A DNA stretch of 64,000 bases, taken from positions 13,565,827-13,629,826 of the forward strand of contig CM026551.1 of assembly GCA_015143295.1 (NCBI GenBank). Reading direction: 5' to 3'. Positions 1 to 54,913 of the stretch are shown here, in pieces. Within the stretch, counting starts at the first letter, position 1; the number at the start of each line of letters is the position of its first letter. The notes below the pieces were generated by a model. The model saw nothing but the letters and a program-made list of their open reading frames with translations, made no database searches and had not been told where the DNA came from. Made by a program: the position numbers and the translations under genes. The stretch is from Tetracentron sinense. Lineage: Eukaryota; Streptophyta; Magnoliopsida; Trochodendrales; Trochodendraceae.

Positions 1-236
1 TTTAACAATCTAAACTTGATTTTTACAAAAAAAAAAAATTAACCTTATGGTTAAGAAATTTTAACCCTGCCGTTAATTTTTAAAAAATATAATTTATAAA
101 ATCAAGGGTTAGATTGTTGAACCTTAAGATTAGCAAATCTTAACCATGGTTAATAGGAATTAAAAAGGACACGTGTTGACTTATGGGTGCAATTGAACTC
201 TCCTTGAATTCAATCGCGATTGTCTGTGATTTGATC
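1..236. mobile_element. Foldback-type repeat, cut by window edge
   Basis: It has complementary arms (AACCTTATGGTTAAG, TTAACCATGGTTAATAGG) and the tail GGACACGTGTTGAC. The arm is the same kind as in the foldback elements at 7946 and 13835. The tail after 128 matches the repeat unit at 3901 and 4012. Confidence 0.5.
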
Positions 237-341
237 TCATCCCCTTTGGGGCCGAGGACTCAGTACAAGTATGGGCACAGTGGCGTTTGCTAGGCCTATT
301 TGTATTAACCTAACTTAACTCCTCATTAACTTATTACTAAG

Positions 342-3803: not shown

Positions 3804-4296
3804 ACTAGCGGGTGGCACGTGCGATGCATGTGAGAGCGAGGGGAAGGAGTTAACGACACCCGATTGAACTCGCTAGTAGCATGTGCAATGCACATGAAAG
3901 CGAGGGAAAGGACTTAACCACAGTTAATAGGAATTAAAAAGGGCACGTGTTAACCTATGGGTGTGATTGAACTCTCCCCGAGGTCAATCGCGATTGGTTG
4001 TGATTCTAAGAGCAAGGTAAAGGAGTTAACCACAGTTAATAGGACTCAAAAGGGGCACGTGTTTACCTATGGGTGTGACTGAACTCTCCCCGAGGTCAAT
4101 CACGATTGGCTTGTGATTCTAAATAGATATATGGCAAGGGATAGTTTAGGAATTAAAGTAAAATATTAAATCAAAGGCAAGGGTAGTTTGGGAATTAAAG
4201 TAAAACATTAAATCAATGTTTTGTTTTTATATAAAGGTACTTTGGGAATTTCGAAAAAATCATCTATACATGCCTCTTACATTATAATAGTAAAGA
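3804..4296 (-). mobile_element. Non-autonomous Helitron-like element
   Basis: On the - strand it begins TCTTTACTATTATAATG and ends with a GC-rich, partly self-pairing segment followed by CTAG at an A/T junction. These are the usual Helitron ends. Inside are two 112-bp direct repeats (from about 3901 and 4012). A second 3'-end-like sequence (CTACTAGCGAG on the - strand) lies at about 3862-3890. No protein is encoded. Confidence 0.6.
3901..4124. repeat. 112-bp direct repeat, two copies
   Basis: Units share AACCACAGTTAATAGG, GGGCACGTGTT, CTATGGGTGTGA, CTCTCCCCGAGGTCAATC and TTGTGATTCTAA. A third diverged copy is at 128-235. Confidence 0.85.
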
Positions 4297-4892: not shown

Positions 4893-5410
4893 CAGGGGCC
4901 GGAGCCAGGAATTTTTCATTGGGGGGGCTGAAATACACGCTTGGGGGTTCGGGGCGTAGCCCCCGAGAAATTTTTTTTTTGGGTAATTTTTTTATTTTGA
5001 GAATTTTTTTCCCGGTAATGTTCTTGAGGTCACCACATATCCCTATTGATACCCCTTAACTGTGGTTAAGATTTAATCACCTATCTTTGGTTTTTTTTAA
5101 AAATATCAATTTTTTTTCAAACCATAGTTAAAATTCACTAACTCCTAAGGTTAAAAAAATTTAATACTTTTTTTCTAAAATCAAAGATAAGTAAGTGAAT
5201 CCTAAGAGTTGGTGAATTTTAACCATAGTTAAGAGATGTCAATAGGATATGTGCGACCTAAAGGGCATAACCGGACTCAATTGGAGGGCCCACCATATAT
5301 ATGGCAAAAAAATTGGGGGGGGGGGGGGGACTATATAATATTACATAAAAATTTGGGGGGGAGTGGGGTAAGTAAAGTTTTAAATACTCCTTGTACTTTT
5401 ATTAGTAGAA
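4893..5410 (+). mobile_element. hAT-type element end with nested foldback repeat
   Basis: CAGGGGCCGGAGCCAGG at 4893 is a hAT-type terminal repeat; GGGGTTCGGGGCGTAGCCCC follows. A foldback repeat at about 5005-5290 (CCTTAACTGTGGTTAAG / TTAACCATAGTTAAG arms) lies inside. A 15-base G run is at 5315-5329. The right end is not defined. Confidence 0.5.
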
Positions 5411-7936: not shown

Positions 7937-7945
7937 TTGAATATA

Positions 7946-8310
7946 GGCACCTATTCCTCTCCAGTTGTAACCGGTTTTACCAAAACCGGTTACACCCCTG
8001 AGGCGGCCACATGTCCCTTTTGACACCTTTTAACTATGGTTAATGTTCACTCACCCTTAAGGTTCACCCAACTATCCTTGGTTTTTATAAAAAATATTTA
8101 AAAAATTTGTTAACCGTTGTTACAATTTACCAACTCCTAGGGTTAATTTATTTTAAATATTTTTTTCTAAAAACCAAATATAAGTGGGTGAACCCTAGTG
8201 CTAGGTGAATCTTAACCACAGTTAAGAGGTGTAAAAATGGATATGTGGTGACCACAGGGGAGTAACCGGTTTTTGACAAAACCGGTTACAACTGGAGAAG
8301 ATCACCAGTC
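7946..8310. mobile_element. Foldback Mutator-like MITE with 9-bp target duplication
   Basis: Direct 9-bp copies TTGAATATA flank it (7937-7945 and 8311-8319). The 365-bp element is nearly self-complementary along its length. Each end also carries its own palindrome: GTAACCGGTTTT..AAAACCGGTTAC on both sides. A 9-bp target duplication is the Mutator-superfamily hallmark. No coding sequence. Confidence 0.85.
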
Positions 8311-8319
8311 TTGAATATA

Positions 8320-8660
8320 TGTTTAATTTAGCCATCAAAGTTAGAACTCTTGGCTGTATCGTTATTGATTGTTTGGTTGATATGACTTCTTGGGTGTTAC
8401 TTTAACAGTAGTTAGTTTCATGGGCTCCAACCTTAAGTAGGATGATCAAGTGCACATGTGTTTTCTATACTAATACAGCCGATTGACTCTCTGTATGAAG
8501 GTGGGTATGCAAAAACTTGTGTTCAAATTTTGCTCTAGAATTTCACGTAGAAATAAATATTTTTGGAGACCTCTACGTGACGATGAAGATAATTTTTTTG
8601 GTTCAAAGAAGGTATTATTTCTTTCATATTATTAGAATAAAAATATTTGTAACTCTAAAT
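8320..8660. other. No gene seen
   Basis: AT-rich spacer between the foldback MITE and the solo LTR. Nothing recognised. Confidence 0.4.
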
Positions 8661-8665
8661 GGTTA

Positions 8666-10804
8666 TGTAGAACCCCGAATTTATTACTCTTGATATTTGT
8701 GATGATTATTAAATTTTACGGAAACTTGTGTTTAAAATTAATGTGATCAAAGCTTATAAATGTTAAGTGAAACGTATTGATTTTAAAACCCAAATAAATC
8801 ATATAATTTAGGACATTTTTAGAGTTAAATTACATGAAAAGAAATAAAGACAAAAGTAGTAAAAGAGTTTATAAAAAATTGGATCGGCGCTCCGGCCGAT
8901 CGATCGCCGACCGGCGGCGATCGATCGCCCACAATGCCGTTTTGGTGATGGTTTGCGTGATTTTTCGATTTTTAGAGTCCCTAGGGCTCCCTACACTATA
9001 AATACTCCTTATAATCGTGGGTTGAGGGTTTCTAAGGCTTTCTAAACCTAAAAGAGAGAAATAGAAGATGATTTTGAGAGATTCAAGAGGAGAGATCAAA
9101 GGTTTGCAAGAAAAAATAGTGAAAAGACTTATATCAATCTCATTCGCAAGCGCTTGATCGTAGGGAAGCGATTGAGAGAAATAAATATAACTTCCTTCCT
9201 ATCAATATGATGATTTGGTTATAAATATGATAAAAATGATAGATTTAAAGTAAAAAAAAATAAGATTAAGCATGATTGTGATATGTCAATTCCTTATTAA
9301 AGATAGATATGAAGTTTAGAGAAAGTTTTATTATGATTTTATTATAAAAGAGAGATATGATTTTACTATGAAAGAGGAATATGATGCTTAGATATATTGC
9401 ATTATGATTTTATTACGAAAGATGAATGTGATATTTTAAGATGTTTCGTGATAATTTTTATTGTAGAAGTTAATTGTGATACGAAAGATGTTCTTATGAT
9501 TTTGTTTTTCATATTAAGAAGGGGAAAGAGAATGATCTTGTGGTATATGGATGATGGAGAATGGAAGAAGATATGATGGTTGAAATTGATGAAACAATTA
9601 TGAATTTGCTTTGAAATTTTGATGTGCTATGAAACTAGGGTTTTGTGAGATTAATTTTATTAAAATTATCTATTGAAAATTGAGGCATGATAGATAAAAT
9701 TATTTCTTATTTTATTGTCGAAAATTTGATAGATTTATGTTCTATATTGATCAGTTTATGAGAAATCTTGCATGTTTAAATTGGTGCATGATTTACACTC
9801 ATCATTATTTCACTCACACTTATTCACGAAATTAAATATGAATAAGCATGATAATAAGCAAGATAATAAGTATTATGCAAGTATACAAGGACACAAGTAT
9901 GACTGTATGATTGAGTTTTGCACTGACCGAGTACTTACAAGCCTAAGATCAAGGCAAGACAACCCGTATACACCGGTTAATGTGTAGACAAGTCGTATAC
10001 ACAAAATAATGTGTAGACAAACCGTATACACCTGTTAATGTGTAGACAAGCTGTATGCACCGGATAATGTGTAAACCGTGTGATACCTCTGAAAGTAGGG
10101 TATATGTTAATCTCTACCCAATATATGGGGTAGAGTTATTTTAAGTCATTGCACTTACATGTTGTTGAATATATTCACAAACAAGAAAGATAAGTGAGAT
10201 AAACAAGATAAACAAGTACAAGTGAGCACGTATAAGAATTGAATTTGAATTATGCTTCTGCACTCTGAATTGTTTATATATTTACATGTCATGTTGAATT
10301 CTAAATTATGTTAATATTAATTGTTGTTATATTGTTAGTTAGGAGTTTATATATACACGGGGTAACTTGTTACTCAGCCGATGACTTTTGTTATCGGCAG
10401 GTTCTAGGTTTGATATCTATGCCCCAGGATCTTAGGAAGAGTACAAGGAAGAACCAGCAGGTGATTATCCCGATGATGAATGAAATTTGGACTGTTGGCC
10501 ATTTCCAGGAAATTAATTATTAGTATTTGATTTGGAGTTAAGACATTGTAATAAACTTAATGTTGGATTTATGGTTAGATTGAATTGATAGATGTGAATC
10601 AGGATGAATGATTTAAATTATAAATTTTGGTTTAGTTTTTATTTCAGATATTAGACTTAGATCATAATTTATTTAAAGAAAAATTTTCAAGTTCATGTTT
10701 TTAGAATTGTTTTAAATGCTTTATAAACAGGAAGATATGAAAGTGATGGTTAAGTCACGTGTCAAAGTCTCACACTAAGTTAGGTGAGATTTTGGGGCGC
10801 GACA
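8666..10804 (+). mobile_element. Solo LTR, gypsy-type family (copy A)
   Basis: A 2139-bp segment begins TGTAGAACCCCGAA and ends GGGGCGCGACA, flanked by perfect 5-bp copies GGTTA (8661-8665, 10805-10809). It contains a TATA box (8997-9004), GATCGATCGCC motifs (8895-8932) and a 29-bp tandem repeat (9965-10077). No internal region or second LTR is present, so it is a solo LTR. The Ty3/gypsy assignment is from the terminal sequences only. The intact duplication suggests a fairly recent insertion. Confidence 0.88.
9965..10077 (+). repeat. 29-bp tandem repeat inside solo LTR A
   Basis: Four units of the type CGTATACACCGGTTAATG + TGTAGACAAGT. The same array occurs in reverse orientation in solo LTR B at about 18870-18965. 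Confidence 0.85.
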
Positions 10805-10809
10805 GGTTA

Positions 10810-11849
10810 TAATGACGTTTATGACTTATTCTTTCTTATATGATCAGCAACACGGACTTGAAAACACAATTACATATTGTGTTATTTGATTAATTAATGT
10901 TTTTCGTGCTTTTAACTCATGAAATACATATTTTTTTTTTGATTAGCGACACAGTTTGGATACACAATTACATGGGATGTGATGTTATTTAATTTCTTGA
11001 ATTTTTTTCAGCAATTTGTGGTTCAATTTCAGTAGAATCATATTATAAATCTCTATATCTAATATTTACTTAATTAAAATTATTTTATTTTATATTTTAG
11101 TACTTTGTTATATTTTTTTTTGGGAAGTATATATCTAGAGAGAGTTTTGTTATAGCTTAATTATCTCAAGCTTTGTCACTTAATAGTAATTTCATTAGTT
11201 TCTAATTTTGGTTTTGTGCATAGAAAGTTACGGATGTCATAAAAAAAAAAAAGGATGAAGTGCTATAGTCATTTGGATGGGACGAAAACAAAAGGAAAAG
11301 GGAAATGGTAATTCTTATACACGAATCTTGTGTTGTAGAACAAATTTTAATTCTTCGTATTGAAATGGGCTTAGATTATATCTAAACTCGCAATTTATAA
11401 AGAAAATCAGATGTCCGTAAAGGATTAAAGTGTCACTCTATAATTGCTTTATGGGCTATTTATTTTATATGCACTGTTTCATATATCCTGCCACATTTGG
11501 TAGTAGGCTCTACTACATGTCTTCATGCACCTTAAGTCATGCTTCAGCATCTCAGGTCATAAACAAGTAGATTGGAACACCTTCTTCTTACATACATGAG
11601 GGGTCGGAGTATTTTTAATATTTTGTTTTATAAAAAATTCTTTTGTTGTTATGATTTTTTATTTTGGTTTCATTTCAGTTTTTGTCTCGTGCATCGCACC
11701 AGCTACTTGCTACTATTATATGCTAGAGAGAAAACAGTTCACATTCTCCTCCTTATGCCACCTAAGCATATCATTCTTGGCTTCGGATTCTCTCTAGCGC
11801 ATGCCAGAGAGGTGCTCTCAGGCTTCCACACTTAAGCGACAAGTGGCGG
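10810..11849. other. Spacer; possible Helitron end at about 11690
   Basis: GTGCATCGCACC followed by TTGCTACTA at 11690-11712 resembles a worn Helitron 3' end. Nothing else is recognised. Confidence 0.3.
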
Positions 11850-11986
11850 GAGAAGTCATTTCATTTCTCCCCTAATTTTTGACTTCTCCCCATTTGATAT
11901 ATCTACCAATTTATCTCACCATTTTATCACTGTGTCAAATAAAGGCTTGAAAAGTTAAAATCATGGGGCCCATGAAATGACTTCTC
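11850..11986. mobile_element. Small MITE
   Basis: Ends are inverted copies: GAGAAGTCATTTCAT and ATGAAATGACTTCTC. The length is 137 bp; the family is not assigned. Confidence 0.55.
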
Positions 11987-11989
11987 AAG

Positions 11990-13834
11990 CCAATTGGCGC
12001 TTCATGTGTGGTGGCTCGAGAGCACGTCTCTGGCATGGGCTAGAGAGAGTCCGCAGCCATCATTCTTTTGTGAAGCCAGATAGGCATGTTCTTCATTCAT
12101 CCGGACACCTAAGCAAAACAGTGGGACCCACCACTCCCTCAATCCTTTTATCTTTCATTCCCACCCTATTAATGCCCCCGTTCACACACACGTTTCAAAA
12201 GTCTAGGGAGTGGGACCCACCTATTTCTTTTTCATTTCTTCTCTAACGCTTCCAACTCTCTTCGTAATCTAACACTTCCACTCTTGATAACGTTTCCGAA
12301 TCTTCCACTCCACCTCCCTCTCATCATCTCCTATAAATGGATTCAAGTTCTTGATAAATTGCAATGGCTATGAAGGCCAAGAAGAAGCCCGTAGTAAGGA
12401 AAGCACATGCGGAGAAGAAGCTGAATATGGGGATCAGAGAGGCTCCCATTGAATAGTCGTTTCATCTTCCAACAAAAGTCTTTCCATTGAAGAAATCAAG
12501 TGTCTTCTCCCTTCGACACCACGCTTCGAAATTGGAGAAAGACCCATCCCCTTTCCGACGACACTTTGAAAGACCCATCAAGTGTCTTCGCTTTATGTAT
12601 TGCAACCATTAGAATGGAAAGTTAAAGAACATTTTCGACTTCAAGGATTTGGAGTGTTTAAACCCAAACCCTCTGCACAGAGCAAGAGATGCATTGCATA
12701 GCCAGGAAACTATAACAGTAAAACTCAACGCCAAACCCTTGTCCCATTACAATCACTTGCACTCCCAGACACCGGAGAACTACTTTCCCATTGGAAGAAG
12801 TTGGTGAAGCATAGATGGAGCACTCCCATCAAGGTTCAAGAAATTGGAATCTGAGTGAAAATTCACCACTACTGTGCCATGCTCAAGACGAAGCTGCTCT
12901 GCAGAGCTTCAAGAAATTATCCATGTAGGTGCCAAAGCTTGTGAGGGAAGATGCCTTCACCATCATAAGGATTGATAAAGAGGATGTCATAGATATTGGT
13001 TGTGTACGTGAGATATATATTATTGTTTCATGAACCAATTTTTTTCTCCACTTTCATCTCTCTCTCTCTCTCTCTTCTTCTTCTTCTTCTTCTTCTTTGA
13101 ATCAATCCATTGAAACGAAGCTTTGGAGATGGAAATATATGGTGTGGTGCAAAGAGAGAGGTGCATGACTGCTCGAGTTTTAACTGGGTATTCCTGTTTT
13201 GAAGCCTACATGAAATGCTTCAATTGGATTTTTTTATATTCTTATTCATAGAAATTGATTAATAAATATTATTTTTGGACATGTATACCCATTGAAATGT
13301 TTCGTTCCCAAAGTGAAATGGATTTTGTTTTGTCATTGTAATGAACTTCAACTCCTTCCTCTCTTCTATGCATATGGAAGTGAGATTCCAATGCTTTTGT
13401 CTTTTTTAAATGTTGTATTGTTTGTTTTTTCTTTCCATAAATAAAGTTTTCAGTTAGATAATTAAATCAATAAGATTGAAGAAATATCTATTTTTTCAGA
13501 ATTAGCTTCTATTTTAATTTAACCTTTTAAATTTTCTCTCTAAGGATTTCACCATGTTGAGTCGCAAGGAAAGCTTCTGCCTTTAATATATTAGCATTGC
13601 ACAGGGTCTATGCTAAATGCTTCAGCCTCTTCCGGGCCCAATGCAGCTCCCTCCGCTCCTGCTCTAAAGTGATTACAACATCATTCAAAAAACACAATGA
13701 TAAACAGTTTGATGCAGTAGCTTTTATATTTAGCTCTTTTTTATTAATTATTTTCTTTTGTTTCCTTGCATTGCCATACAAATTATTTTTTGTCATAAAA
13801 AATATCTAAATATCAATGATACCATTAATCATAG
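11990..13834 (+). other. Unassigned, gene-like leader and short lysine-rich frame
   Basis: After a CT/CCACC-rich stretch, the ATG at 12364 opens a frame of about 30 codons starting MAMKAKKKPVVRKAHAEKK. The frames that follow are closed, including a piece reading VREDAFTIIRIDKEDVIDIG near 12945-13005. I do not recognise a family; it may be a decayed gene or a non-coding transcript. A CT/TTC microsatellite lies at 13060-13097. Confidence 0.3.
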
Positions 13835-14227
13835 GGCAGCAAATCCTCTCCGGTGATAACCGGATTTTGCAAATCCGGTTATCACCCCTAGAGGTCACCA
13901 CGTGTCTCCTTTGACACCCATTAACCATGGGTAAGGTTCACCCACCTATTTTTTGTTTTCTTTTAAAAATAATAATTCTTTTTTTAAAATTAAAAAACTG
14001 TTTTTAATATTAAAAGTTTTTTAATATTAAAAAAACTCTAAAAACAGTTTTTTTATTTTAAAAAAAGAATTATTATTTTTTAAAAAAAACCAAAAATAGG
14101 TGGGTGAACCCTAGGGTTGGGTGAACCTTACCCACGGTTAAGGGGTGTCAAAGGAGACACGTGGTGACCTCTAGGGGTGATAACCGGATTTACAAAATCC
14201 GGTTATCACCGGAGAGGATTTGACGCC
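13835..14227. mobile_element. Foldback Mutator-like MITE with 9-bp target duplication
   Basis: Direct copies TAATCATAG flank it (13826-13834, 14228-14236). The 393-bp element is almost one perfect hairpin. Each end has a further palindrome: GATAACCGGATTT..AAATCCGGTTATC. It is in the same family as 7946-8310, sharing the arm with CACGTG, TTAACC and CCCTAGGG. Confidence 0.9.
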
Positions 14228-14239
14228 TAATCATAGCAA

Positions 14240-17727: not shown

Positions 17728-20700
17728 GTATTCTATCCCATTTTCTGTAATTTCTAGTTTCTAAGATGATTTACTCATCTGGATTTCTTTCATTCTCTGT
17801 GTTTCTAAAAATTTTGGCCTTTTTTCGTCTGTGTTTTCTTGTTTCTGATTTTTTTAATATAAATTTTGGTGTTCTTTGTCTCAGAATTGGCGGTTTAATT
17901 TGCATTTCTTTGTGGGTATTTCAAAAAATTCAGTCTTTATTATTATTATTTTATCATGAAGTATTGATTTTGATTCATTTTCTCAATTGGATTTTTCTTT
18001 CCGATGTTAAATGACCTTGCTTGGTCACCTAATTAAGCATCTGAGCTTAATTATATACTGAGAAATTGGGGTATTAGGTTAATCAAGCAAGTCAACTGCT
18101 TGGTTTTTTGGACAGAGCAGATCTTAATTTATAATTGTCGCGCCCCAAAATCCCACCTAACTTAATGTAAGACTTTGGCATGTGACTTAATCATTAACTT
18201 CCTGTCATAAAGCATTTAAGGCAATTCTAAAACATGAACCTAAAAATTTTCTCTTCAAATAAATACTAATCAAGTCTAATATCTGAAATAAATGCTAAAA
18301 CATCATAATTAATTAAAATCATCCCCTATGAGTCCCCAATCGTAAATTCAAACTAACCATAAATCTATAATTAAGTCTATCACAATGTCTAAACTCCAAA
18401 ATCCAAAATACTAGTAATCTAATGTCCAATATATGGCCAGCAATCCAAATTCCATTCCCCCTCAGGGTAATCACCTACTGGCTCTTCCTGCTCCTCCTCG
18501 TACTCTTCCTCTTCCCAAGGTCCTGGAGCACAGATACTAAAACTAGAACCTGCCGACAACAACAGTCATCGGCTGAGTAACAAGTTACCCAACGTATATA
18601 TAAAATCCTATCTAACAAGATAACGATATTTAATATAAACATGGTTTAAGATTCAACATAACACGTAAACATATAACAATTCAGAGTGCAGAAGCATAAT
18701 TCAATTTCGATTCTTACACATGATCACTTGTGCTTATTTATCTTGTTTATCTTACTTATTTTCTTGTTCGTGAATTTATCCAACAACATGCAAATGCAAT
18801 AACTTAATATAATTCTACCCCATATATTGGGTAGAGACTAACATATACCCTACTTTCCGTGGTACTACACGATATACACATTATCCGGTGCATACGGCTT
18901 GTTTACACATTATCCGGTGTATACGGCTTGTCTACACATTCGCCGGTGTATATGGCTGGTCTTGCCTTGATCATAGGCTTGTGGGTACTCGGTTAGTGCA
19001 AAACTCAATCATGTATAATGCTTGTGTCCTTGTATACTTGCATGATACTTGTCATCTTGTTTATTCTCATGTTTGTTCATATCTAAATTTCGTGAACCAG
19101 TGTGAGTGAAATAATAATGATTGCAAATCATGCATACATTTAAACATGTAGGAGTTCTCATAAATGATCAATATAAAACATAGATTTATCAAATAAAATA
19201 AGGGACAATTTTATTTATCGTGTCTAAATTTTCAATACACAATTATAATCAAATAAATCTCACAGATCCCTAATTTTTATAATACATCATAATCTCAAGC
19301 AAACTTATAATAGTTTCATTAATTATAAACATCATCCCCTTCCTCCATTTTCATCGTCCATACACTACAAAATCATTCTCTTTCCCTTTGTTGATATAAA
19401 ATTAAATCATGAAGAACATCTCTCACATACTAGTTTTCACAAGGAAATTACAACTTAGATCACTTTCTATACATCATACATACTTTCCCTAAGAAAATCA
19501 TGATTTAAAATTCTCTAACATCAAGTATAAATTTTCTAAGAGAAAACATGGTTTTTACATCACAAAGTCATCACATATATTTTCCATAAGAAAATCCTGG
19601 TATAAACATCATAAGATCATCATATTTATTTTCCATAATAGATTGAAACATTACAAACATGTTTACTCTTATTGTTCTTGCTTTAGATCTATCATGTTCA
19701 TCATATTTATATCAAAAATCCTTATATTGATAGGAAGGAAGTCATATTTACCTCTCTCGATCGTTTCTCTACGATCACGCGCTTGCGAATGGGATTGATC
19801 TAAACTTTTTCACCCTTCTTTCTTGCAAAACATTTGATCCCTCCTCTTGAATCTCTCAAAAATCCCTTCTCTCACTCTCTTTTAGGTCTAAAAAGTTTTA
19901 GAAACCCTCAACCCACGAGTATAAGGGGTATTTATAGTGTTAGGAGCACTAGGGACTCCACAAGTCGGAAAATCGCGCAAAAAGAAGCCCAAAACGGCGT
20001 TTTTGGCAATCAATCGCCTCCAGGGGCGATCGATCGCCGCCGGTGGGCGATCGATCGGCGGTGACGCCGAATTTTTTTTAAAACTCTTTTGCTACTTTTT
20101 GCCCATCTTTCTTTTCATGTAATTAAACCTCAAAAACGACTTGAATTTAGTGTTTTATTTAAGTTTTAAAATCACTACTTTTCGCATTAAATTTATAGGC
20201 TTAAATATATTAAAGTTAAACACACATTTCCATAGCATTTAATAAATATCACAATTATTAAGAATAATAAATTCGGAGTTCTACAATAATCATTTTTTTA
20301 TGGGGACATAGTCCAACATACATTTCTCATATGTCTTGCAACCATAACAACTAGGAGGACTTGTTTAGCCATTATGCTTTAGACCATTTTTTTTGAAGTT
20401 TTTCACATTTCAAAAATTTTCGGGGACCCTCTGATGTCCTTTTACTTCTACAGTGTTTGCTTCATCTTGCTTGCTGATATAAGTCAATTAGCCCATATTG
20501 ATGGGTGTGTGGCACTGTGATACCCCCTGGAATTATGCCATAGTATTGTGAGAGGAATTTATATAAGAAACATGAATCTGATCTACGCTATAATTTGCAT
20601 GAAATTGTGAGCTTATGTTGTTTTGAATCATCCCAGTGACATGCTTGATTGCCGAGGTTCCCATGATCATTTTCGTGGAGTGTTATTTATCTACAGGGAC

Positions 20701-23700
20701 GGAGCCACATGGGGTCCAGGAGCAGCCCCCCCTCAAATTTGAGGTTTTTTCTTTTTAGTGTCAATATAGGCAGCCTGGGAGCAAGGGCGAAGCCGGGTGG
20801 CGGTGGGGGCTCTAAGCCTACCCTTAAATCTGGAAAAATGCTTGACTTACCCGCGGTTTCCATCATGTAACCAAATGGCCAGTCCTCATTAGTCCACGCT
20901 CCACTATTTAGCACTCACAAACTATGGTTAAGATTCACTCACCCCTAGAGTTAAGCAATCTAACCTTGTTTTTTAGAAAAAATTGACAAAAATCTTAACT
21001 TTATTTTAGTTAAGCTTAAACAGGGTTAAAGGACTATTAAAAGGGACACAAGGACACGGTGATAAGTTAAGCAGTGGACCTTAGGGTCCGCTAATCACTG
21101 GTCAAAAATATATTCTTTACAAACGGACAAAGAGACGAAATGGCCTACTAACTTGGCCCTAAATTTTTTATCCGGGGGCTCCGCCCCCGAACCCCCACAC
21201 CTTATTGTTAGCCCCCCCCCTCCCGGGAATGAAATCCTGGCTCCACCCCTATTTATCTATGATGTATGAATGCAAGCTTTTGCTATGAGGCTTTGTCAAA
21301 ATTGTTAGCCCAAGAGTTGTAACCTCTAGTCTAGGGCAGAACCAAGACAGGATGATGGAGCAAGGATAAAACCAGTATGATTGTCATGGAGTGCTTGTTG
21401 GTCTTGACTAATTTTGTAGTCTCAAGCAGAGCAACTTTAATGAGTTGGATCTGATTTCATGGTATTAATTATTAAGTTTGAAATCAGAATAGAAATTTAA
21501 ACTGTACATAATGTTTGGGTAAATATAAAGTGCATGTTTTACGAGAACGTGTAGGACTTAGTCTTTGAATAACTGGAGTCAGATTCGAAGCCTACAAACC
21601 CATTCTCAAGTGAAGTTTCAAGTATTCAAACCTGGGTGGTAAAGCTGGACCATAATAGAGTTACAGAAGTTGTCGCCTGAAAGAGGAATTTATGGAGAGT
21701 AGGTGGAACAGCAAGCTTCATGCAACTATTGGTGGCATTACAAGAAAGGAAATCCTTTAGAATATTTTAGTACAACGAGAAATCATAATTAGTGGGGGTT
21801 CAACAATTGAAATATCAACGGATTCTATCTGGTACAAAACATGAGAGCAAGATACAAATATACACCCTATTGGACCTCCTGTTCTTACTTGAGAGTTGAG
21901 ACCAAAAGCAAAAATTAGTCAGCATGCAATTAGTTACGAGTTATGTCAGTGATTATTGGTATTTCGTCGATGTTTATATGTTCCATTCTTTTTCCCTGAT
22001 CATGAGAGGCTGTTATGTTTAGGTAAAAATTGTATAATACAGGCTAATGTTTTGCCTCCTAACTTAGTCTGTTATAAGAATATATCCCCTGGTGTTGTTA
22101 TAGGCATTTGTCTACAATTAGGAAAAAACTAAAACTAGGTACATGATTCTTCACTCTTCAGATAATAAGGCAAAATGAACGACTGGGTTTATGGACCCTT
22201 TTGGCAAACAAACATAGGCACGGTGATGACTGCAGTTTTATTTTGTTACTTTACACTTTAATTCCTTGCAAATTCGATGCTTAACTACTATTTTCATTTT
22301 ACCTTTGCAATGTTGTTTCACAGAATTGTTTTGTGAAATTATGACATGCTGATTCTTGTGAGTGAATTTTGAATATGATCCTCTTATGTACTTAAATATA
22401 CCTACTGGTAAATCACGTTCACATATGCAACTGCATCGTGAGATAAACAAACATTTTGACAACATTACATTCCCCCTCATGCTTTTTTTTTTTATAGATT
22501 TATTATTTAAATTTTGTGTAGGTCAATAAGATTTTCATTTTCAGTATTGTAGTATTATTTGATATGCTGCTGATTAACAGGACATTTATGTCTTTTTTAT
22601 GATGTCAGAATTGCGTTCTGTTTTATCTATGTTGCAGGCTATTGGGCTTGAGGGAGATGTTCGCAAGCAGGATGATGCAATCAGAGTTCTGGAATCAACT
22701 ATTAAGCATTTTGGCAGGCTTGACATTCTTGTAAATGCTGCAGCTGGCAATTTTCTTGTGTCCGCAGAGGATTTATCCCCTAATGGGTTCCGTACAGGTT
22801 GTGTCTAGACAGGCATAAAGAGATAGTTGGCATGCTATGCTTTTAACTTTTTATCCAACCATGGTCTTTGAAATTCTATGAATAGAACTTGAGGCAATCA
22901 TGCCTTGTACCTCAATAGTTTGATTAGACCTATATTTGAGCTGAGCTGAGCTTGGTCAAGCTTAAGCTCAGCTTGAACATGCTCAAGCTTGGCTTGAGCT
23001 TGGCTCAAGCTTGATTCGAGATCGAATGTTCAGCCTCGAACTTGGCTCGAACAAGCTTGACCGAGCTCTAGCTTGAACTTGATTGAAGCCGAGCTGAGCT
23101 AGTTTGGCTCAAGCTTGTTTCAAATTTGAGGGCTATTTTGGTTAATTTTACATATTTTAATAAAAGCATTTATTATTAAGTTACAATACAATAAAGTACA
23201 CAAATTGAATAAATTTTATAAGTGTCAGTCTAAAGAGTAGATAATTAAGGTTAGGATTTTTTGCTTTTGACTTTTTGACTTCCTTTTTATATTATTATCT
23301 CTTTGTCTTATTTATTATAAGTTACAAAGAGTAGAAAGAGTACCTTCCAAAAAAAAAAAGTTACAAAGAGTAGAAATATTGAAACCCTAGTTTCTTGTAT
23401 GAAGAGAAGAGAAAGAGGAAGAGGGAGAAGAGAAAGAATAAGTATATTTGTTGGATATACTCTTGTATCCTTTTTATATTATTATAAAAACCTTGTAAGG
23501 TCATAAGTACCTTCACGAATGTGTAAACATGTGCATTTTAATTAACATAACAAATTATGGGCTTAATAACTTAGGCCAATTACAACACCCCCCTCAAATG
23601 GGGCATAGATGTCCAACATGCCTAGCTTGCCATGAATATAGTGATGTAGATTAGAAGCAACTGCTTAAGTATGTCAACTAACTGATCATTTGCTTGAGTC

Positions 23701-48139: not shown

Positions 48140-48780
48140 GAGGTGTTGGACTCTCTCGAATGAGCCCAAAAGGTGTAGATCTCCCTTTAATGAGATCTAA
48201 TTCTATCCCCTTCTCATTTAATTTCACTTTTTTATTTGGGAAGAGAAAGAGGCACGTAACATTTAGTTTCTTAATTGTTGACTGTATTTCCTTGGCATTT
48301 GGAAGAATTCCTGATAGTTTCTCTTCTCTGATCCTGTAATTTTCTCACTTGAATTTTCTTCTAATTGTAGGTCTTTGTCATGTGGTTGGATTTGACTTAC
48401 TTGCATCACCATGGTCATGAGCAAAAGCTTCCCTGGTACCATGGAAAAGTATGTATGTTGAATGTCTTACCTAGATTTTTTGTTCAAACATTCTCCATAT
48501 TTGATGAGAATTTCAAAAATTTGGAAAGAATATGCCCATGGAAATCTGGTTTGAGTATCCATGCTTAGCTATGATAATGACGCCTTAGACATCCAAACAG
48601 AGAAATAAGTATAAATTTGAAGAGGTTTATCTTGGTAGGCTAGGTTAAAGCTTGTGTTTTGCATTTTGTTTAAAATACTAATTTCTTCTTCTTTTTGTAT
48701 TGAGCAGGACTGGAATTACCTAAGGGGGAGGGCTTACGACGCTTGATCGGGACTACAGATGGATTAATAACATCCATCAT
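48140..48780 (+). repeat. Tandem segmental duplication inside the desaturase relic, copy 1
   Basis: This copy is nearly identical to 49541-50270, covering intron sequence, exon b, the next intron and the start of exon c. It breaks off within exon c after CATCATGATAT. Confidence 0.9.
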
Positions 48781-49540
48781 GATATATGTACTGTATGGAG
48801 GTCCTCAGAAAAGCTTTGGTGAATGTGACAGGTTTATTTTACACATTTTCATGAGCTGATGAAATACATGCATGGGCAGTGTGAATCATGGGCGAGAGAA
48901 CATTAATAAGAATACAGAAAGGATCTTTCACTGTTTTCCCCTATGTTGCATTGGTATGGATCTGTGTCAGAATCTGACATATGTATGGAGTGTTGGATAT
49001 TTGCTGTATTTTAAGAAATGGGATTTATGGATTTGATTGTGTATATTTTAAATAATGCAACATATACTTGTTTAATACAATAATAGGGTTTATAATGGAC
49101 TCCACAATGGAATATCTTATGATTTGTATCATATATCTACAGACAATGCTAGAAAGGAATGTAATAGCGATATTTGCCACTAGAAACTCTGCACATGAGG
49201 AAGCAAAACTTATAATTTATAGTCGGCCTGAAAAACCTTAATTTATACTGCGCGAGAAACGGAAGAAAAAGTAAAAGAGAATCCAAAAATCACACCAGAG
49301 AATCCATGCAATACAGGTTTTGCCCATGTACATCTTCAAAATTTTCCTTCACGTATTTTGGACTAGAGATGGAAACTAATGAGATTTTCAGGACAACTTG
49401 ATCATGAGGTAAGTAAATAAAAAAGCAAATGAGAACAACTAGAAACCAGTGTTTTAAAAGCATGTAAGGCTTACGCCTCGAGGCTCGCCTCGATTTCATT
49501 GCTGTAGATGAAATGAATAAATGAATAAATACGAGCCCAA
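48781..49540 (+). other. Sequence between the two duplicated desaturase segments
   Basis: No exon is recognised. AGTGTTTTAAAAGCATG and GCCTCGAGGCTCGCCTCG at 49450-49492 look like the end of a hAT-type repeat, next to the start of copy 2. Confidence 0.4.
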
Positions 49541-50270
49541 AAGGTGTTGGACTCTCTCGAATGAGCCCAAAAGGTGTAGATCTCCCTTTAATGAGATCTA
49601 ATTCTATCCCCTTCTCATTTAATTTCACTTTTTTATTTGGGAAGAGAAAGAGGCACGTAACATTTAGTTTCTTAATTGTTGACTGTATTTCCTTGGCATT
49701 TGGAAGAATTCCTGATAGTTTCTCTTCTCTGATCCTGTAATTTTCTCACTTGAATTTTCTTCTAATTTTAGGTCTTTGTCATGTGGTTGGATTTGGTGAC
49801 TTACTTGCATCACTATGGTCATGAGCAAAAGCTTCCCTAGTACCGTGGAAAAGTATGTATGTCTCTTTGTTCAAAAGAAAAAATAGATGTGGGACTCGAT
49901 CTCACAACTGGCACGGTAGCCGGGGTTTTTTCTTTTCCTCGTCCGGAATGCAGGCCACTGTTTTTTGTTCAAACATTCTCCATATTTGATGAGAATTTCA
50001 AAAATTTGGAAAGAATATGCCCATGGAAATCTGGTTTGAGTATCCATGCTTAGCTACAATAATGACGCCTTAGACATCCAAACAGAGAAATAAGTATAAA
50101 TTTGAAGAGGTTTATCTTGGTAGGCCAGGTTAAAGCTTGTGTTTTGCATTTTGTTTAAAATGCTGATTTCTTCTTCTTTTTGTATTGAGCAGGACTGGAA
50201 TTACCTAAGGGGGAGGACTTACGACGCTTGATCGGGACTACAGATGGATTAATAACATCCATCATGATAT
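49541..50270 (+). repeat. Tandem segmental duplication inside the desaturase relic, copy 2
   Basis: Offset from copy 1 is 1401 bases at exon b and 1485 at exon c. The difference is an extra stretch at 49870-49965. This copy continues into the complete end of exon c and the final exon. Confidence 0.9.
49870..49965 (-). mobile_element. Short insertion with a tRNA-like B box (possible SINE fragment)
   Basis: Present only in copy 2 of the duplicated segment. On the - strand it contains GATCGAGTCC, which fits the pol III B box GWTCRANNC. It is too short to be a whole SINE. Confidence 0.35.
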
Positions 50271-50780
50271 TGGTACCCATGTGATACATCATCTCTTCCC
50301 TCAAATTCCACACTATCACTTAGTAGAATCAGTGAGTATCTCATTCATTGGAAACTAATGACTGAATAGGCAATTGCAAGAAGTGTTTCATTAAGAACTG
50401 TCTCTTATGGTTTGTTACCATCTTCTTGTAGACGGAGGCAGCTAAGCCCATGCTAGGAAAATTCTACCGAGAGCCAAAGATATTCGGACCTCTACCTTTT
50501 TACCTAATTGGAAGTCTAATAAGAAGCATGAAACAGGACCATTACGTTAATGACACAGGGGACATTGTCTACTACCAAACCAACCCTCAGCTATCTATTT
50601 CTTCTCAGGGTAAATCAGCTTGAAGCCTTGAAGGTGTGTAGCTGAATTTCTTGGAGATAAAACCATCCACCATAAATTCTTACTTCTCAAAGTCCCTGCT
50701 ACCCATCAAATTTCTTGATTTGGTGCCACTGCACCAAACTTCTTACCAAAGAACTGAGGAACGATATTTTGGATGCAGCT

Positions 50781-53129: not shown

Positions 53130-54651
53130 ATATCATCAACATGACTTGGCTTTGGTTCATCTAATAGATTTCAGAGGTTTACCATTAATATGTTCTATAT
53201 TTGAGTTGTGTTTTGCAGTTCTTGTTATCTATCAAGGTGCTAACTGTTATTTGTCACTTTTGCGCAATCCTATATGGCTTCTGAATCGTTCAAATTGTGG
53301 ACTTCTTTAAGCTTTTGTATTTTCTTTAGTACACTTGTTTTTCCTATTTCTTAATTTTTGTTTGTTAGCGGGTAGGGACTGATAGTACCTTTCCGGTTGT
53401 TCTTATATTGGACAGGTTGTTGCAATTACTGTTTTCTGCTTTCTAGTTGTTGCATTCTACGCTTTCTTCACTCCTTTTCTTGGTGGCTACATCTTGGAGT
53501 ATGCTTTGATCGCTACGTACACGCCTGTGGTACTTGAGCTTTCCTAAACTAATATATCTAGGATTGTGTTGTTTTTTCTGATACAAAGATCCTGCCTTTT
53601 ATTTTCCTTTGTGTTTTCATTATTGTTTTGGCATGACAGGCACTCCTTGTTTTTGTTCTTTATGTCCGGTGTACAGAATTAACCCTGCCGATTCAGGGAC
53701 TTTGTCAAGATTCGATTGTGGGTTTACGAATAAACCCAATGCAAAATTTAGAATATCAGCTATGGATATACCCCGAATCTTCAGTGAAATTGGCACTGGG
53801 ATTCATTCTTCTCCATCATCAACTTCTAGAAGCTCCATAGCAGCCAACTCCTGTAAGAAAGGTTCAGTTGGAGAAGCTGGGAGAGAGGACATTCCTATAG
53901 GACCTGCAAGTAGATCATCATCTTGTTTTATCATAGGACTCTTCTGTGCATTATTTGTAAATGAGGATTGCTGCAAACATGGAGGGCCCACTGAGCAACA
54001 AACTGCTGGTGAAAATTCCTTATTCTGTACATTATGCAATGCTGAGGTAGTGGTCCATGACATTTTTTCCCCTATATAGTTGATTAATTAAATATATGAG
54101 TGGTAAAAATGTTTTAAAGTCTCCATTTGTATCTTTTGCATTCACGTCCCACTGTAATTCTGCAAAGTTGCATTTCTCGAATTTTTCGACTCACATAGCA
54201 TACAAGGTCCTAAATTTTAATATTTTTTTTAACCCCTCCGACTGTCTGATCCCTAGTGTGCCATCTATCATTCACTGAGTGGTTTGGTAGTATGGTTTTA
54301 AATTGCAGCCAAATTTCGGTTTTTGGCAGCCCTGGGAAATTTCCCCCACGTTATTATATTTTTTTTTGTACAAATTCTTTGACCATTTTCACATTTTTTG
54401 CCCGAGATATTAATCCATCTCAGTTATTAGCTTGCAAAATGTTGGTCAATTTATTCCTCTTATTTGAATTGGTTGTGGCCCTCATTAGCCCAAATCAACT
54501 CAAAACCAGTATGATAAGCTGCGCAGAACGTGTGGGGAGCCTTTTCTCGGGAGAAAGCACGGAATAGGTATTTTCTTTCGATTTTTTAAATCTTGAATTT
54601 AATATAACTCCGTTAGAGTTTAGAATTGATTGGTATTTTAAGGGAAATGGA

Positions 54652-54913
54652 AGATGGACCCTAGGGTCAGCTTAGAAGCTGACCCCAGGATCTCATTGGT
54701 TCACGCCCCCTTCTTATCACCCATCAACTGTGGTTAGGATTCACTCACCCCCTAGGGTTAAGCATTCTAACCATGGATTTTAGAAAAACAAAAAAACCAA
54801 ATTATTAATTCCAATTTAGTTAAGCTTAACCATGGTTAAGGAGGTCTTAAAAGGGACAAGTGGACACTGTGGTCAGCTTAGAAGAGGACCCTGGAGTCCT
54901 CTTCTCAGGACTC
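54652..54913. mobile_element. Foldback MITE in acyltransferase intron 3
   Basis: Inner arms AACTGTGGTTAGG / TTAACCATGGTTAAGG as in the foldback family. The left end has GGTCAGCTTAGAAGCTGACC and GGACCCTAGGGTC, both self-pairing. The right end has GGTCAGCTTAGAAG and GGACCCTGGAGTCC. No target duplication confirmed. Confidence 0.65.

Follow-up and report, generated by a model that had tools for sequence, protein, structure and literature searches.

We found that two miniature inverted-repeat transposable elements (MITEs) in the genome of Tetracentron sinense, here called E1 and E2, carry a hairpin near each end, and that the arms of these hairpins differ between subfamilies in a largely matched way, whereas changes private to inserted copies are seldom compensated. 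Both elements lie in a window of 64,000 nucleotides (assembly GCA_015143295.1, contig CM026551.1, positions 13,565,827 to 13,629,826 of the forward strand), which is the whole stretch of DNA that was analysed; the genome searched for relatives comprises 1.16 Gb in 1479 contigs, C1 to C24 measuring 33-65 Mb each. That the arms change together between lineages while old copies decay freely suggests that an intact hairpin aids the spread of the elements. The whole account that we favour, in which a hairpin or a set of matching half-sites would be required for amplification and dead copies decay freely, we put at a probability of about 0.52.

Two foldback elements and their copies

7937..7945, unstranded: left 9-bp target-site duplication of E1, TTGAATATA
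7946..8310, unstranded: E1, foldback MITE of subfamily D, 365 bp, recognised by duplications, foldback and folding
7966..7994, unstranded: left-end hairpin of E1, arms 7966-7978 and 7982-7994, loop ACC
8262..8289, unstranded: right-end hairpin of E1, arms 8262-8273 and 8278-8289
8311..8319, unstranded: right 9-bp target-site duplication of E1, TTGAATATA
13826..13834, unstranded: left 9-bp target-site duplication of E2, TAATCATAG
13835..14227, unstranded: E2, foldback MITE of subfamily A, 393 bp, recognised by duplications, foldback and folding
13852..13886, unstranded: left-end hairpin of E2, 16-bp stem, loop TGC
14176..14210, unstranded: right-end hairpin of E2, 16-bp stem
14228..14236, unstranded: right 9-bp target-site duplication of E2, TAATCATAG

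A preliminary description of this DNA had credited both elements with perfect 9-bp target-site duplications and a foldback structure, and the flanking repeats, the arm alignments and the folding shuffles bear this out. The duplications of both are 9 bp long and exact; the self-complementary arms measure 130 nt at 77% in E1 and 117 nt at 93% plus 75 nt at 93% in E2; and the DNA folding z-scores are −17.6 and −30.8, respectively, with none of 100 shuffles folding as well. The stems of the end hairpins are all perfect (13 bp at the left and 12 bp at the right end of E1, 16 bp at each end of E2), their loops are of 3-4 nt, and for each of the four hairpins 0 of 200 shuffles fold equally well. A chance origin of the hairpins and of their matched changes is thus rejected by these shuffles together with the covariation controls given below.

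Long inverted repeats span most of both elements, as in foldback transposons, and both are short, non-coding and present in high copy number with a 9-bp duplication, as are MITEs derived from Mutator-like elements (MULEs); none of the five open reading frames of at least 150 amino acids in the window overlaps either of them. MULEs make nine-base duplications and long inverted repeats. Stowaway and Tourist MITEs, which duplicate 2 bp (TA) or 3 bp (TAA/TTA), are ruled out by the 9-bp duplications, and Helitrons, which make no target duplication and have a hairpin at the 3' end only, by the duplications and by the presence of hairpins at both ends. In a self-comparison of the window E1 and E2 are ~69% identical and, judged from sequence, belong to different subfamilies, D and A, of a large group of MULE-like MITEs rather than being two copies of one family. 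We would describe them as non-autonomous foldback MITEs of MULE type, as the 9-bp duplication indicates, whose ends share one layout: an outer stretch of ~8-30 bases, the hairpin, a similar subterminal block (AGGTCACCACGTGTC-like) and the foldback body.

Relatives of E1 occupy at least 41 places at 90-100% identity, counting E1 itself and two partial copies (40 of 6363 candidates scored), and those of E2 at least 39 places besides E2 itself, with 87-90% identity (out of 3116 candidates, 40 were scored), both counts being lower bounds. The flanks of 37 distinct copies (38 rows, one element being present twice) were read by eye. In 21 of them an exact duplication, 9 bp or longer, lies no more than one base from the element's ends; in three more it is offset by 2-3 bases, in four more a 9-bp duplication has one mismatch, and nine fall into none of these classes. 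Exact 9-bp duplications were also seen in five of six copies of subfamilies B, C and E, in 4 of 11 sequences of family I (in 3 of which the right end was not located) and in two of eight copies of family J. Hairpin ends were collected with three patterns. The first, which fixed only the hairpin flanks, gave 364 matches against 2 in a control, and the second, of D type, 614 against 52, with 100 ends listed from each; the third (35 against 6) revealed subfamily E. The arms of the listed ends sort into A (the E2 type), B, C and D (the E1 type).

Hairpin arms between and within subfamilies

The case for matched change rests on the seven majority rows that represent subfamilies A-E. Six of the 16 stem pairs (4, 5, 13, 14, 15 and 16) have changed on both sides, in 15 such cells; pairs 13-16 are Watson-Crick in all seven rows, a single wobble occurs at pair 5, and one row (L081) breaks pair 9. 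Overall 89.3% of cells are paired, as compared to 26.5-43.8% in controls with one arm slid along by 1-3 columns. None of 500 shuffles reaches the observed covariation score, and 16 of 500 reach the number of pairs changed on both sides, so the earlier claim that the matched changes are not due to chance holds at the level of subfamilies. When family J, a further family in the window, is added (six rows, inner 12 pairs, in an alignment that presumes the hairpins to correspond), both sides vary at 10 of 12 pairs, and pairing holds in 72 of 72 cells, as compared to 20-47% in the slid controls.

The change that drew attention to these elements, TTTT/AAAA versus ATTT/AAAT between E1 and E2, is indeed present in all four arms of hairpins that stand at each terminus, as had been proposed. 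It had been read as matched changes in the four arms; the matching stands, but with the two elements ~69% identical the difference lies between subfamilies and is not a recent mutation in two copies. E1 and E2 differ as well at stem pairs 1, 3, 4 and 5, which the preliminary description had not listed. Compensation is seen at both ends for pairs 5 and 13, and at the left end of E1 only for pair 4, with T/T at its right end; pairs 1 and 3 are uncompensated. Subfamily-specific pairs recur at both ends of three B copies, of the two-ended C copy (with one private break) and of one of two E copies, the right end of the second being worn. A palindromic pattern that barred only T on one side with A on the other at pair 14 gave 646 matches against 6 in a control; in 50 listed places, complementarity holds at pair 14 in 46 cases, at pair 13 in 45, at pair 15 in 43 and at pair 16 in 25, although these places are mostly E relatives plus five of an unrelated repeat (F) and hence not independent.

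Within subfamilies the picture is different. Using 175 of the 200 listed ends (23 were dropped for aberrant length or an extra C, and two were unassigned), we found that 0 of 28 changed pairs in A, B and C together and 2 of 64 in D are compensated relative to the subfamily consensus, that is 2 of 92, where 0.4 would be expected by chance. Whole copies, whose counts overlap with those of the listed ends, agree: 0 of 15 stem changes are compensated in 28 A copies and 0 of 2 in 8 D copies. The contrast between the fixed differences (six compensated, three not) and the copy-level changes is strong (Fisher p ~2e-6; p 3e-5 with pair 4 scored as failed). Uncompensated arm changes in other copies had been named in advance as evidence against maintenance of pairing; they are the rule in copies after insertion and not in the lineages that founded subfamilies. 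Continuous hairpin repair in all copies is not supported, private changes being seldom compensated, and, as pairing is not kept in dead copies, these can be explained without invoking either constant repair or selection acting after insertion.

Rates of change were compared in the 28 A copies, from which E2 itself (L009) and L038 (the same element as L027) were left out. Outside CpG sites, stems have changed at 8 of 1512 positions and nearby flanks at 35 of 4019 (p 0.23), and CpG changes number 7 of 280 in stems and 6 of 224 in flanks. The AT-rich middle of the element has changed faster (101 of 4778; p 7e-6 compared to the stem).

On the reading that we find likeliest, the intact hairpin, whether through its structure or through its two matching half-sites, is a cis feature needed for mobilisation, and only copies that keep it would make new copies. 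New subfamilies would then be founded by hairpin-intact sources, and their arm changes would be mostly matched; copies, once inserted, would be released from constraint and decay without compensation. We rank selection on transposing copies for an intact hairpin or dyad above a rewriting of the arms tied to transposition, and both may operate.

Several observations weigh against this account. Two wobbles occur at pair 4, which does not pair in the right-end row of D, pairs 1 and 3 have changed on one side only, and further pair types in A-E are no more numerous than in shuffles (279 of 500 reach the observed value); moreover, the fixed differences come from few lineages, with majority strings picked by the analyst. 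Private compensated pairs slightly exceed chance, with 2 in D where 0.37 are expected (p 0.053) and 2 of 35 in family J where 0.67 are expected (p 0.14, from 15 of 16 ends), as templated correction would give. In A copies the stems decay at a flank-like pace, yet the middle of the element has changed faster than they have, which leaves fully free stem decay unproven; the formation of hairpins in cells is predicted from sequence. Finally, a MULE transposase partner was not found: the genome has at least 150 PF10551 matches, but a comparison of 142 MULE-domain matches (eight on unplaced contigs being left out) with 274 end or element places gave two pairs within 12 kb, as compared to 0.8 expected by a simple estimate, with the nearer end facing away from the gene. 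Neither of these two neighbours is convincing as an autonomous partner, and among the matches listed no PF10551 match is enclosed by hairpin ends.

Left ends, right ends and an inverted loop

Comparison of the two ends of E1-type elements bears on how the arms come to agree. Between the two ends of the E1-type consensus there are 7 differences in the 12 outermost positions, none in the next 9 or in the 24 arm positions, 3 in the 4 loop columns and 19 in the 87 positions of the inner flank. The arms thus differ less than the inner flank (p 0.011), and with the adjacent nine bases included, which were joined to the test only after the alignment was viewed, the figures are 0 of 33 in this segment and 26 of 99 at the other positions (p 0.0003). 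Because copying of a whole end would carry the loop and flanks along, we take the identity of arms between diverged loops and flanks to reflect constraint on the arms. Copying of one E1 end onto the other is therefore rejected. The preliminary description had offered two explanations, selection for pairing or copying of ends by template switching: the first survives for amplifying lineages, and of the second a switch within one hairpin is possible, but end-to-end copying fails for E1.

The same comparison bears on a founder effect, by which subfamilies would descend from single copies whose ends happened to match, the whole element being one near-perfect palindrome made by a single inverted duplication. 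The outer arms of E2 are 93% self-complementary, so the match between its two ends follows from this directly. A founder effect nevertheless leaves unexplained both the pairing within one end and the identical arms of E1 despite its diverged ends, and it is strained by the covariation across A-E; we regard it as highly improbable.

Two single copies deserve mention here. L091 has left-type flanks at both ends, and end-to-end copying may have occurred in other lineages. At the left end of L087, an A-type copy, the outermost bases are replaced by GATAACCGGATTTGGCAAATCC, which resembles the copy's own hairpin sequence, as a template jump would give.

Reading inward from the right end of E1, one finds the loop GTCA, which is the reverse complement of TGAC, the loop that is usual in subfamily D and commonest at its right ends (20 of 31 listed right-type ends of normal length). 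A survey pattern that admitted 16 loops gave, at 100 listed of 105 intact-arm ends, TGAC in 88, GTCA in 9, TGAA in 2 and TTAC in 1, and none of these 100 ends has a loop with two or three of the four changes. Eight of the nine GTCA ends are E1 or its listed relatives of 93-100% identity, whereas at least five other listed relatives, of 91-93% identity, carry TGAC. Among eight E1-type copies retrieved whole, the loop is GTCA in six, GTCC in one and has an extra A in one, and in none is it TGAC. A single inversion is favoured as the origin of GTCA because it requires one event rather than a deletion, a substitution and an insertion, and on this basis hairpin-templated rewriting has probably happened at least once. 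The loop of the E1 lineage suggests that some of the matched changes, too, were probably made in one step by hairpin-templated copying.

Alternatively, such mutation could act without selection: a polymerase switching template during transposition or repair would let one arm rewrite the other, and the hairpin would be self-maintaining. Template switching is described in passages of PMC8794818 as mending stems and as able to invert loops, with CTTG and GNRA loops enriched; it predicts matched stem changes and loop inversion, the latter being named there as one of its footprints, although those passages show it for RNA genes and not for transposon ends. The exact inversion in 9 of 100 listed ends fits, as do the CTTG and GGGA loops of E ends and two D ends with a matched change (C2:10541632, G-C to C-G; C2:4870381, G-C to T-A), the copy at C2:10541632 retaining CCGG in the one intact arm of its other end. 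However, copies are hardly corrected, as the 2 of 92 changed pairs attest, and not one inverted TGC loop (GCA) occurs among 92 A, B and C ends of normal length, from which we conclude that loop flips are rare; one GCC beside 28 GGC is ambiguous. In addition, source lineages should be mostly uncompensated if selection were absent, unless correction took place only at transposition, and PMC8794818 itself regards its evidence for maintenance as circumstantial and the complete inversion of a loop as very rare. Templated mutation as the sole cause thus seems to us somewhat unlikely, and selection on transposing copies remains the reading that we prefer.

The wider group and known systems

Further families were found from core-motif matches within the window:

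1..245, unstranded: family J MITE, right part (right border approximate)
5012..5278, unstranded: subfamily E-like MITE body, 81% identical to positions 42-318 of an E copy, ends worn
20885..21092, unstranded: family H, a more distant relative, inside a longer repeat, ends not resolved
54642..54913, unstranded: family I MITE, with shared core motifs and no 9-bp duplication in this copy

A hairpin stands near each end in every family with resolved ends (A-E, I and J), but the same hairpin at both ends is not general. The family I copy in the window has unlike hairpins at 54664-54685 and 54880-54905 (1 and 2 of 200 shuffles fold equally), GGGTCAGCTT-AG-AAGCTGACCC at the left and a AGAAGAGGACCC-type stem at the right, and the matching between ends that had been noted for E1 and E2 does not extend to this family. 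In family J the window copy has a degraded hairpin at 189-217 (9 of 200 shuffles fold equally), and the consensus has a 12-bp stem, GCGATTGAACTC/GAGTTCAATCGC, at the same location, with a similar subterminal block after it. When the stems are aligned outward from the loop, J and E differ at 5 of 12 stem pairs, all of them matched. Of the single changes in J, 23 of 32 give wobbles, an excess to which no weight was given because changes shared by a subfamily could account for it.

These families allow one to weigh the possibility that the dyad is a protein-binding site, each arm being read as a half-site by one transposase domain, so that all four arms stay alike and a hairpin never forms. A fixed sequence and like ends would be expected, and A-E largely conform: the core TAACCGG/CCGGTTA varies in just one of seven rows, and the arms of E1 match between ends while its flanks do not. 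Against this, the hairpins of family I differ between ends, J alters five of the seven core letters, and the inner pairs vary between subfamilies, yet in a matched way. We consider a protein-bound dyad of this kind distinctly unlikely. It is rather doubtful, too, that a MULE lineage uses the structure of a terminal hairpin, rather than its sequence, as a cis signal, the hairpin's place being kept across related families while its letters turn over by matched or templated changes, and that it is read when extruded or single-stranded during transposition.

Some other sequences share features with the group. F repeats, with an TAACCGGGGTT/AACCCCGGTTA hairpin, were excluded as a different repeat without clear inverted ends. 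L096-L099 belong to another repeat with a TAACCGG hairpin, in which the inner arm is GGTT/AACC (AGTT/AACC in L099) as opposed to ACTC/GAGT in E, and which likewise has no clear inverted ends. A J-like end region with a GATTGA-CTC/GAG-TCAATC hairpin is repeated in tandem at 3899-4122 of the window, in two copies of 112 bp. The C-type ends L073 and L074 had no matching right end within 5-7 kb, the sole one found being that of a separate B element with its own duplication; together with L082 and L083 they run after ~100 bp into unrelated DNA and may be longer elements, captured sequence or broken copies. E2 itself lies between the arms of a 2.2-kb inverted repeat (8657-10812 and 18129-20295; 77% identical, ~7.3 kb apart), at whose ends no exact 8-11 bp duplication was found and whose arms share a 29-bp tandem repeat (9957-10073 and 18875-18962) that runs in opposite directions in the two. 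Two pairs of direct repeats (48141-48791 and 49542-50276; 97-98% identical, 316-321 bp each) suggest that a duplication took place not long ago or that they mark both ends of a recent insertion.

The FARE elements of Arabidopsis are foldback elements whose two ends bear long palindromic repeats, and they are now placed among MULEs. They are named in passages of PMC4486113, which describe MuTAnT of Medicago truncatula, a likewise short, modular, foldback element of MULE type with almost full-length inverted repeats; MuTAnT targets TA microsatellites, and those passages describe no separate end hairpins or matched arm changes. Tm1, a Mutator/Foldback family of root-knot nematodes, is similar in its 9-bp duplications, composite inverted repeats and MITE-like members, but according to passages of PMC3169594 its inverted repeats are largely made of 13-15 bp tandem units and a histone hairpin lies between them, not at the ends. 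A similar pattern is seen in the 3' stem-loop of DINE-1 in Drosophila, where the stem varies among species with pairing kept and the authors suggest compensatory mutations, although DINE-1 is another type of element that inserts between TT dinucleotides, with no 9-bp duplication in the passages of that paper (PMC2374699). In the literature searched, outside which most subscription papers lay, we met no description of end hairpins of MULE-type MITEs that change in a matched way.

Cut-and-paste transposons are usually thought to be recognised by the sequence of their ends. End hairpins that turn over in sequence yet stay paired between lineages, set against dead copies that change without compensation, offer a natural experiment on selection for DNA structure at transposon ends, and the many copies with known ends provide a clean setting in which to measure hairpin-templated mutation against selection.

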